Positions 1-3,892 of a stretch of 44,482 bases of DNA are shown in pieces. The notes beneath the pieces are model-generated. The model did no database searches. It saw nothing but the letters and a program-made list of their open reading frames with translations, and had not been told where the DNA came from. The first letter of the stretch is position 1. Every line of letters begins with the position of its first letter. Source of the DNA: Bacteroidota bacterium (GTDB taxonomy: Bacteria; Bacteroidota; Bacteroidia; Bacteroidales; UBA5342). The stretch lies in contig QKHT01000033.1 of the NCBI GenBank assembly GCA_003249935.1, positions 1-44,482 on the forward strand, in the 5' to 3' direction. A program made the position numbers and the translations under genes.

Positions 1-975
1 TGAAAGCAAATCACAACCATTTTTACCGGATTCCACACGTGAGCAACGCTGAAACCAATATGTCAAAGATACAATTTGAAAGCAAATCACAACTGATTTT
101 CCCTGTTCTGAAAGATTCGCCTTGCTGAAACCAATATGTCAAAGATACAATTTGAAAGCAAATCACAACGTAAGCTTATTCTCGTTTCGATCTTTAAGCG
201 CTGAAACCAATATGTCAAAGATACAATTTGAAAGCAAATCACAACCGCAATACGAACAATATTCTATTTGTTTTTGCTGAAACCAATATGTCAAAGATAC
301 AATTTGAAAGCAAATCACAACAACTTGGTGCCGGTTTTGTACAATTGCTGCGCTGAAACCAGTATGTCAAAGATACAATTTGAAAGCAAATCACAACATT
401 TGCCTTCAAGTGCATTTAATAACATATGCTGAAACCAATATGTCAAAGATACAATTTGAAAGCAAATCACAACGACAACCATAACCATTCTGACAACCAT
501 AAAGCTGAAACCAATATGTCAAAGATACAATTTGAAAGCAAATCACAACATGATTATGCAACTCTTTGTGTAAAACAATGCTGAAACCAATATGTCAAAG
601 ATACAATTTGAAAGCAAATCACAACGGCGTTTTCAAACGACGAACCGGCCGAAACGCTGAAACCAATATGTCAAAGATACAATTTGAAAGCAAATCACAA
701 CTAATGGTTCTACCAACAACCAAATCGTTGTGCTGAAACCAATATGTCAAAGATACAATTTGAAAGCAAATCACAACCGGAATCCGCCCACGCTTTAAAA
801 GGGTAGGGCTGAAACCAATATGTCAAAGATACAATTTGAAAGCAAATCACAACACGTATTGAGCAAAGTCGCCAAATCCTGAAGCTGAAACCAATATGTC
901 AAAGATACAATTTGAAAGCAAATCACAACACCTTATTCAGTTGCTCGTATTCCTTCAGCGCTGAAACCAATATGT

Positions 976-1005
976 CAAAGATACAATTTGAAAGCAAATC
1001 ACAAC
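976..1005 (-). promoter_or_regulatory. Promoter inside each CRISPR repeat (representative copy)
   Basis: Read on the minus strand, repeat positions 23-30 are TATCTTTG (here 983 down to 976), a perfect match to the Bacteroidota -7 consensus TAnnTTTG. The repeat's opening GTTG (1005-1002) supplies a TTG 18 bp upstream, close to the usual 19-21 bp to the -33 element. Transcription would start about ten bases before the repeat end and run into the adjacent spacer. The same element is in every repeat. This matches the arrangement known in Neisseria type II-C arrays, where each repeat holds its own promoter. Activity is inferred. Confidence 0.6.
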
Positions 1006-1035
1006 ATCTGTTATGCCTGTTTTTATTTCAAAAAA

Positions 1036-1063
1036 GCTGAAACCAATATGTCAAAGATACAAT
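1036..1063 (-). repeat. Truncated terminal CRISPR repeat
   Basis: Only the first 28 plus-strand bases of the repeat remain; identity stops abruptly after GATACAAT at 1063. On the minus strand this keeps repeat positions 19-46, including the TATCTTTG box, and loses positions 1-18, which hold GTTGTG and the segment expected to pair with tracrRNA. The last spacer (1006-1035) still has a complete repeat on its 3' side in the minus direction, so a crRNA could still be made from it. Confidence 0.9.
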
Positions 1064-1246
1064 CGGAATTGAATGAACCCGCATACGGTTAGCATTTGAA
1101 GCCCTGTTGTGGTAACCCTCCAAACACAATTCAATACAGGAATTGAAACAAGAAGTGATTGGAAAAATGATTGAAATTTTCCTGCACTACCATCAATTCA
1201 AATTAAACGGTTATTTTTATCGCAAAATTGAAGTAACGATACTTAT

Positions 1247-3892
1247 ATGCAAAATTTAATAAAATCGATAAATGCAACCATCCATAAATTGCAATTAGAT
1301 CTCGATCGTTTCGAATTGGCTTTTGGCGAATCAATTTACAATAATAACGAGTGCCAGATACTTACGCAATCGGCCGAAAAATTTGAGTTCCTGTTTTCCG
1401 ACATGTCGCAAGACAACGAAATAACACTCTATTTTATTGGATTTGGTGATGATCTTAAAATTGTATCTTCGAGTGAAACGTGGAATCGATTTGGTTTTGC
1501 CGCGTTACTCGAATTACGCCATGAGTTAAGTCTTTTAGATGCCAAAGTTCCATTGGAACACAAAAAATACACGCAGCAAGGCATGATTAAGCGGGTGCTG
1601 CATGAGCGGATGCAAAAGGCATTGGTTGCAAAATACAAAGTTACCTATGCCAAAAATAAGTATGGCGACCATATTGTTACAAACGAAAATGGTGTAAAAT
1701 ACAAAGTGTTTTTGCGCGATTTCGAAAACGAAACCGGATATAGCAACAGCAAAGATTCGGCACTTAATAAATTGGGAACAACCAAACATATTATGTTTGT
1801 TTTCAATGAGTTGAAAAACAATCCAAAACTACTAAACAAGCTGGATCAAACGTGTCCGTTTATCGAAATATACCTCGATCCGTTAAACGAATATCGCATT
1901 ACATGGTTTTACCCACACCAACTATCGGTCGAATCGGCTTCAATTATCGAAAAATATTTTGGTAAAGCCCAATTTATCGACGACAACAAAATTGAAGAAT
2001 TCGTTGATTTTCTTATCGATGTTCAGCAATTAAACCATTTTGTGGTTCGACCCGAGGTTATAGAAAAACTTGAAAATGAGTGGGAAGAACGCTCGTTAGC
2101 ACTGACACGAAAAAGTTTCGTACCCGATTTTTCAGGCATCCGTGCTACTTTGTATCCATATCAGAAAGAGGGCATTGCATTTGCTGCTTGTCGCAAATCG
2201 GCCATAATTGCCGATGAAATGGGCCTTGGAAAAACCATTCAGGCTATCGGTACAGCCATTCAGAAAAAAGAACTTTTCGGGTTTAAAAAAATGCTGATTG
2301 TTTGTCCGGCTTCACTCAAAACACAATGGAAAAGCGAAATAGAAAAATTTACAAACGAGTCGGTGGCCATTGTCGAAGGTTCGGCCATACAACGCGAACA
2401 GTTATACAAAACGGCAAATAATACTTTTTTAATCGTTAATTACGAATCGGTATTGCGCGACCAAATGGCCATAAGAAAAGCTAATTTCGATTTTGTGATT
2501 TTAGACGAAGCGCAACGGGTGAAAAATTTCGCTACCAAAACAGCGCACGCCATCAAACAGATTAGAAGTAAGCATACGCTCATTATTACAGGCACGCCAA
2601 TCGAAAATAAGTTAATCGATCTTTATTCGCTCGTTTCAATTTTAGACGAACGGTTTTTGGGCCCACTATGGGAGTTTTCGTACCAACACTGCTTGTTCGA
2701 CCCCGAAAAAGAGAACAAAATCAACGGATACTATAACCTTCAGTCGCTAAAACAAAAATTGGAAACACTCCTCATTCGCAGAGAAAAGTATAAGGTTATT
2801 AACGAGTTACCACAGGTTCAGCAACAAGAAATATTTGTTGGAATGACCCCTCTGCAGGCCGATTTTCACAATTCGAACGCAAGGGCATTGTCGCAACTAA
2901 TACGTAAAAAATTCCTTACGCCATACGACTTAAACAAAATGCAAATGCTTTTGGCCAATATGCGTATGGTGTGCGATTCAACGTTCCTATTGGACGATTC
3001 AACCAACGATTCGCCTAAATTAGATGAGCTAAAATATATATTACTCGAGAAACTCGATTTGCAAAATAGTGATAGAAAAGTAATTATTTTTTCGGAGTGG
3101 GTTAAGGTTCATAAACTCATCGGCAATATGTTGCGCGAAAACAATATCGGATTTGCAGAGCTGAATGGTAGTGTGGCTGTAAATAAACGGGGAAGTTTAA
3201 TAAAACGGTTCGAAACTAATAGCACTTGCAAAGTATTTTTGTCAACAGAAGCTGGTGGCGCAGGGTTAAATCTTCAAATGGCCGACATACTTATCAACTT
3301 CGAATTACCATGGAATCCGGCAAAAAAGAACCAACGGATCGGCCGTATCGATAGACTTGGACAGAAAAGCAAAAAGCTGAATATCTACAATTTTATCACC
3401 AATAATTCCATCGAAATCCGCATTGCATCGGGTCTTTTGGTTAAACAAAATTTGTTCGAAGGCGTACTTAATAACGACAATCCGACAGATTTTGTCGATT
3501 TTTCGGAAAAAGGCCGTTCGCAATTTCTTGACCAAATTGCCGAAATGGTGGCCGGGTTCGATGAAAATGAAAACCGGATTATTCCGGAAGAGGTATTTGA
3601 AATTAGCCCAATGGCTGAACCGGAAGAGGAACCAACAGAAGAAATTGTATTGGAGGACATCGGTGAGAATAATGGCCCATTGGTCGATGTGTCTGTTGAA
3701 TCGGAAGCTGATGTAAACGTTGCGCAACCATCAAAAGCCAAGCAGATGGAAGAGGTATTAAATAATGGGATGCAGTTCTTGTCCGGGCTTTTTCAAATGG
3801 CAACCGGCAATGCCGCAGGCTTTAAGGATAGCACAATTGATGTAAATGAACAAACTGGCGAGGTGACTATGAAATTTAAAATCCCGGTATAA
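1247..3892 (+). CDS. SNF2-family DEAD/DEAH-box helicase
   Basis: This 881-aa protein is a Swi2/Snf2 ATPase of superfamily 2, a double-stranded DNA translocase family. Visible motifs: Walker A in DEMGLGKTIQ (about residues 323-332), DEAQ box near 418 in place of DEAH, motif III ITGTPIENK near 447, and the C-terminal lobe with IIFSEW (about 615), STEAGGAGLNL (about 668) and QRIGRIDRLGQ (about 694). The first ~300 residues match no domain I can name and probably set its substrate; the last ~110 include an acidic stretch rich in Glu and Pro. The ATG at 1247 is the first start after the CRISPR array, 183 bp away, and a near-consensus TATTTTTA lies at 1212-1219. It reads away from the array. Such helicases occur both in housekeeping repair and in defence clusters; the sequence alone does not decide. 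Confidence 0.9.
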   Translation: MQNLIKSINATIHKLQLDLDRFELAFGESIYNNNECQILTQSAEKFEFLFSDMSQDNEITLYFIGFGDDLKIVSSSETWNRFGFAALLELRHELSLLDAKVPLEHKKYTQQGMIKRVLHERMQKALVAKYKVTYAKNKYGDHIVTNENGVKYKVFLRDFENETGYSNSKDSALNKLGTTKHIMFVFNELKNNPKLLNKLDQTCPFIEIYLDPLNEYRITWFYPHQLSVESASIIEKYFGKAQFIDDNKIEEFVDFLIDVQQLNHFVVRPEVIEKLENEWEERSLALTRKSFVPDFSGIRATLYPYQKEGIAFAACRKSAIIADEMGLGKTIQAIGTAIQKKELFGFKKMLIVCPASLKTQWKSEIEKFTNESVAIVEGSAIQREQLYKTANNTFLIVNYESVLRDQMAIRKANFDFVILDEAQRVKNFATKTAHAIKQIRSKHTLIITGTPIENKLIDLYSLVSILDERFLGPLWEFSYQHCLFDPEKENKINGYYNLQSLKQKLETLLIRREKYKVINELPQVQQQEIFVGMTPLQADFHNSNARALSQLIRKKFLTPYDLNKMQMLLANMRMVCDSTFLLDDSTNDSPKLDELKYILLEKLDLQNSDRKVIIFSEWVKVHKLIGNMLRENNIGFAELNGSVAVNKRGSLIKRFETNSTCKVFLSTEAGGAGLNLQMADILINFELPWNPAKKNQRIGRIDRLGQKSKKLNIYNFITNNSIEIRIASGLLVKQNLFEGVLNNDNPTDFVDFSEKGRSQFLDQIAEMVAGFDENENRIIPEEVFEISPMAEPEEEPTEEIVLEDIGENNGPLVDVSVESEADVNVAQPSKAKQMEEVLNNGMQFLSGLFQMATGNAAGFKDSTIDVNEQTGEVTMKFKIPV

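Follow-up and report, generated by a model that had tools for sequence, protein, structure and literature searches.

The array at the contig start

The window analysed here, a stretch of 44,482 nucleotides representing one whole contig of a 4.27 Mb, 326-contig Bacteroidota assembly, begins with a CRISPR array (positions 1-1064). The array has an exact 76-nt period, made up of a 46-nt repeat and a 30-nt spacer, and continues past the start of the window and contig. Read on the minus strand, the repeat is GTTGTGATTTGCTTTCAAATTGTATCTTTGACATATTGGTTTCAGC. The crRNA strand is assigned to the minus strand because the repeat then starts with GTTG like other type II repeats, and because this reading fits the orientation of the tracrRNA anti-repeats of its relatives. 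The features of the region are as follows.

1..17, minus strand: a further repeat, 5' end only (repeat positions 1-17), cut by the contig start so that the box is not reached
48..1005, minus strand: 13 complete 46-nt repeats with 30-nt spacers (48-93, then every 76 nt to 960-1005)
352-397, minus strand: repeat with a single substitution, outside the box
64..71, minus strand: -7 box TATCTTTG of the first complete repeat (repeat position 23-30)
140, 216, 292, 368, 444, 520, 596, 672, 748, 824, 900 and 976 (+76 each), minus strand: -7 boxes of the other complete repeats
90..92, then every 76 nt, minus strand: TTG, the proposed -33 element (repeat positions 2-4), 18 nt before the box and off the 19-20 optimum
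59..59, then every 76 nt, minus strand: predicted transcription start, the A after T at repeat position 35, from a conserved T-A
1036..1081, minus strand: truncated end repeat, in which 1036-1063 (positions 19-46) matches the consensus, the box lies at 1052-1059, and positions 1-18 are replaced with loss of the TTG
1064..1246, no strand: distal flank of 183 nt between the array and the SNF2-helicase gene
1247-3892, plus strand: SNF2-helicase gene

The repeat is 41/46 identical to that of locus L119, which adjoins a 1245-aa Cas9, and is also close to the repeat of L128. The array is thereby placed in type II-C by homology to cas9-adjacent arrays, the subtype of relatives being read from locus layout and Cas9. 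Neither Cas9, nor a type II Cas1 above the cut-off, nor an anti-repeat was found in the rest of the fragmented 326-contig assembly; the probable location of the cas genes is therefore past the contig start, towards the leader, unless they are absent altogether. A Cas1-like protein with a weak match to the type II model is encoded on another contig (G000:C89:1509-1922), from which the genome may hold a second CRISPR system.

A preliminary description of the array had proposed that every repeat carries a perfect Bacteroidota -7 promoter box on the crRNA strand, with a TTG 18 nt upstream. Both observations are borne out: an exact TAnnTTTG occupies repeat position 23-30 on the minus strand in 14/14 repeats that reach this position (the 13 complete ones plus the truncated one at the end), and the TTG lies at repeat 2-4. 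Fourteen minus-strand copies of TATCTTTG are found in 64-1059 and one elsewhere in the 44.5 kb, against 1.48 expected from shuffles for the whole window on both strands. The 14 copies are nonetheless one duplicated repeat and were dropped as independent pieces of evidence. An exact TAnnTTTG arises by chance in the 3' part of one such repeat at a rate of about 4% (1.54/38 in shuffles), and it is other genomes that supply the evidence beyond chance.

The promoter word in this genome

The sigma-ABfr promoters of Bacteroides are characterised by TAnnTTTG at -7 and TTTG at about -33 (PMC7366714). The window repeat shares the exact -7 word of these Bacteroidota primary-sigma promoters, but presents it in 14 tandem copies between spacers and with a TTG spacing of 18 rather than the 19-20 of its own genome. 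Over 765 kb of this genome, TAnnTTTG occurs upstream of genes at 2.55/kb on the coding strand and 1.28 on the other strand, compared with 0.51/kb in coding sequence. No other word of its shape shows so strong a strand bias in these upstream regions (172 vs 86).

The part of the preliminary description that assigned the -33 role to the TTG fared less well. Ahead of genomic TAnnTTTG, spacings of 19 and 20 nt show a 4-fold enrichment of TTG, against 0.8x background at 18 nt, and the tracrRNA promoters described below show the same preference for 19-20 nt only. The preferred distance is seen in 36/68 relatives with the core, and the spacing of 18 found in the window repeat is shared by 17 distinct repeats in all. 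TTG 2-4 belongs to the near-universal GTTG start of the repeats, and end repeats lose it yet retain the box. A functional -33 at TTG 2-4 of the window repeat is thus unsupported. Outside the box itself, the repeat scores no better than an average upstream site against the promoter profile; a promoter weight matrix derived from the genome proved too weak to discriminate, with opposite-strand sites scoring equally high.

Frequency and conservation of the box in Bacteroidota repeats

To avoid selection by repeat, 164 Bacteroidota loci were gathered by their Cas9 (85 from the phylum and nearest relatives, and 79 named). Arrays are present in most of them, with repeats falling into two classes of 36 nt and 43-50 nt. 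Marinilabilia salmonicolor, whose box is at 23, and Perlabentimonas gracilis are examples of long-repeat strains. In a first set of 38 distinct long repeats, the exact TAnnTTTG was found in 17, where dinucleotide-shuffled 3' parts gave 1.5, and no other XXnnXXXX word was as common. With one repeat taken per Cas9 cluster (60% identity), the exact box was counted in 21.1/45 against 1.8 when shuffled, the maximum in 300 shuffles being 6. Among 80 distinct repeats of at least 43 nt, it occurs in 36/80 on the crRNA strand vs 1/80 on the opposite strand, the next commonest variant being TAnnTTTA (15). The TAnnTT core is carried by 68/81 distinct long repeats; the remaining 13/81 are without it at positions 18-36, as are most 36-nt Bacteroidota repeats at the usual positions. 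The expectation that the word would hold across homologous repeats is hence upheld as to enrichment, strand specificity and conservation, but not as to invariance.

Since shuffling leaves shared ancestry in, kinship was addressed by comparing distant pairs, whose Cas9 proteins are <30% identical. In such pairs, positions 1-18 of the repeat agree at 0.88 and the six fixed box positions at 0.81 (partly from anchoring), whereas the nn positions of the box agree at 0.51 and the sequence right after the box at 0.28, which is random. The box is an island of conservation among distant relatives, which suggests a signal maintained by selection. The G before the box and the middle TC inside it are, however, conserved beyond the needs of a promoter; part of the conservation would accordingly be ascribed to another cause or to shared descent.

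Relocated boxes and eroded end repeats

Twenty of the 81 distinct long repeats are without TAnnTT at positions 21-29, and 7 of these 20 carry it at 31/32 instead (L076, L075, L115, L084, L109, L142 and L196 display a box-like word there). TAnnTT at 30-36 was seen in 2/61 of the other long repeats, a control that yields a Fisher p=0.0006 (shuffles 1.0), with related sequences contributing to these counts. All seven relocated boxes sit 19-20 nt after a TTG at repeat 9-11.

The upstream end repeat is one-sidedly truncated across arrays, with the 5' half replaced and the 3' half intact, in 39 degenerate cases in addition to window 1036-1081; a few of those scored as degenerate are single-base shifts (e.g., L190). 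For those of the 39 with a recognisable box, mismatches amount to 66% in TTG 2-4 and 49% in the rest of 1-18, but to 4% within the box; the following 8 nt show 6%, and the remainder 1%. No spacer precedes the end repeat, so it needs no tracrRNA handle, yet the first spacer still depends on it. This one-sided erosion agrees with a promoter located in the 3' half; the stretch that follows the box, however, is retained equally well.

These two observations bear on an alternative in which the box is a landmark of spacer acquisition, namely an internal anchor from which Cas1-Cas2 would measure the repeat from its leader-proximal 3' end, the likeness to a -7 element being incidental. An integrase must indeed recognise repeats, and in 23/36 exact cases the distance from the box to the leader-proximal repeat end is exactly 16 nt, regardless of whether 23 or 24 nt separate it from the opposite end. 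Nevertheless, an acquisition landmark would hardly account for a box retained in end repeats far from the integration site, for the 8-nt shift that in some lineages takes it to 31/32, where its spacing from a second TTG is optimal for a promoter, or for a word that is exactly the promoter word of the phylum. We regard this explanation as improbable, albeit the best of those weighed against a promoter.

tracrRNA genes as an internal control

The tracrRNA genes of the same CRISPR loci provide an internal control for the promoter word. In 38/70 long-repeat loci, a TAnnTTTG precedes the anti-repeat at a distance of 0-6 nt (mode 3-4), and 23 of these 38 boxes are preceded by TTG at 19 or 20 nt. Candidate promoters of the form TTG-19/20-TAnnTTTG, with the box ending 3-4 nt short of the anti-repeat, are seen across Cas9 loci L054-L217, for example at L119:7858-7919. 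Their position just before the anti-repeat indicates that the tracrRNA probably starts at its anti-repeat.

Pairing of the anti-repeats begins at repeat position 2 and extends to about 20-27, mostly ending at the start of the box. In many long-repeat loci, one T of the CTTTC of the repeat is commonly missing from the anti-repeat, leaving a conserved one-base bulge in the crRNA:tracrRNA duplex.

The extent of this pairing is pertinent to the proposal that the box is conserved as RNA, because crRNA folding, the duplex with tracrRNA, binding by Cas9 or cleavage by RNase III requires it, or is simply inherited. Pairing reaches the first two box bases in many loci, and the surplus conservation of the middle TC and the preceding G noted above would also suit a role in RNA. 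On the other hand, pairing ends at or before the second box base in 41/66, and a paired segment would be expected to covary rather than to keep one sequence. The 3'-side flanks are randomised between distant relatives. Furthermore, the mature crRNA of type II systems retains only the 5' part of the repeat. tracrRNA pairing was consequently rejected as the main cause of the box, a conservation island at whose start pairing mostly stops, and conservation as RNA or by descent is in our estimation slightly less credible still than an acquisition landmark.

Comparison with known repeat-embedded promoters

Repeat-embedded sigma70 promoters are established for the type II-C arrays of Neisseria and Campylobacter (Pearson 2015, PMC4607530); such promoters of II-C arrays were also reported by Zhang 2013, as cited in PMC5006608. 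The text of PMC4607530 makes no mention of Bacteroidota. In both genera, as proposed for the window array, there is one promoter per repeat, transcription proceeds from the distal end towards the leader and cas genes, and the upstream repeat is degenerate. The architecture differs in that the 36-nt repeats of Neisseria and Campylobacter end flush with gnTAnaaT, whereas TAnnTTTG ends 16 nt before the end of the 46-nt window repeat. A flush -10 box with a start in the spacer, as in Neisseria, is therefore not what the window array presents, its start being predicted inside the repeat. TAnnTTTG was found in 0/14 II-C repeats outside Bacteroidota (five from plasmid loci, nine from PMC4607530), most of which end in a sigma70-like -10 (TATAAT, TACAAT and variants). 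By this comparison of sequences, the suggestion that the Neisseria logic recurs with a phylum-specific promoter is supported, the flush sigma70 box being replaced by the box of the phylum. The 36-nt Bacteroidota repeats (e.g., L054, L055, L067) often end in TACATT, TAGATT or GATATT, as opposed to TACAAT or TATAAT in other phyla, and may reflect the same shift in promoter code at the fifth base.

Within the phylum, a repeat-encoded promoter has been proposed, and transcripts inside the array have been seen, for the II-C systems of F. columnare and F. psychrophilum (PMC8092290, PMC10309648). As the promoter element, the authors named only a TTG of the repeat resembling a -33, and the -7 TAnnTTTG of long repeats goes undescribed in these papers. 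Riemerella anatipestifer CRISPR1 resembles the window array in having a long II-C repeat; its authors reported no promoter in the repeats, and putative leaders were screened with the BDGP neural-network tool (PMC5006608). Contrary to this published negative, the Riemerella anatipestifer repeat (L190) contains TATCTTTG at 25-32. For the II-C array of B. fragilis, no leader could be assigned by program (PMC5704556). In a literature search that covered few subscription papers, no paper was found stating that long II-C repeats contain a TAnnTTTG box, nor were RNA 5' ends found inside a Bacteroidota long-repeat array.

The least likely alternative, that one external promoter transcribes the array while the boxes fire weakly or not at all, is typical of other CRISPR types and would suit the low read counts over the F. 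columnare II-C array (PMC8092290), but transcripts in F. columnare originate inside the array and extend as far as the leader (PMC8092290), the 183-nt window flank (1064-1246) has no TAnnTTTG on the crRNA strand, and the 60 distal flanks reveal no consistent external promoter, a crRNA-strand box within 200 nt being present in 11/60 loci, below the rate of the opposite strand.

A probable promoter for each spacer

The reading we favour, and consider probable, is that the box drives transcription as a phylum-specific variant of the repeat-embedded promoter. Each II-C repeat would embed a Bacteroidota housekeeping promoter, whose -7 box TATCTTTG is expected to recruit the primary sigma factor of the phylum. 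Among exact-box repeats, one per cluster, and counting from the first box base, T is conserved at +11 in 20/24 and A at +12 in 17/24, which places the predicted start at repeat position 35. The preliminary description had put the RNA start in the last ~10 bases of the repeat; the start is still predicted within the repeat, though somewhat earlier, approximately 12 nt before the spacer. Unlike in Neisseria, the primary transcript would thus carry ~12 nt of repeat sequence at its 5' end before entering the spacer. Transcription would then cross the spacer that follows and enter the repeat after it, the 5' half of which (positions 2-24) would pair with the tracrRNA. The repeat would in this manner perform two jobs, with its 5' half acting as the Cas9/tracrRNA handle for the preceding spacer and its 3' half as the promoter for the following one, each spacer being copied from its own small promoter.

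A wider proposal, which we advance tentatively and hold somewhat less probable than its converse, is that sigma-factor specificity shapes the repeat itself. The Bacteroidota II-C repeat would be ~10 nt longer in order to house a full promoter; the box would turn over between 23-28 and 31/32, each site having one of the two 5'-half TTGs at a distance of ~19-20 nt; and, with promoters of this class also starting the tracrRNA at its anti-repeat, a single phylum-specific signal would yield the two halves of the guide RNA.

Implications

Should the box drive transcription as proposed, the range of repeat-embedded promoters would widen beyond sigma70 bacteria and take in a phylum whose promoter code differs, and the published negative for Riemerella would be corrected. 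It would explain why a middle block outside the tracrRNA duplex is kept in the long Bacteroidota repeats, and it predicts one exact RNA start per repeat-spacer unit. The orientation of the crRNA would become readable from sequence alone, and Bacteroidota arrays cloned into E. coli may be silent there.
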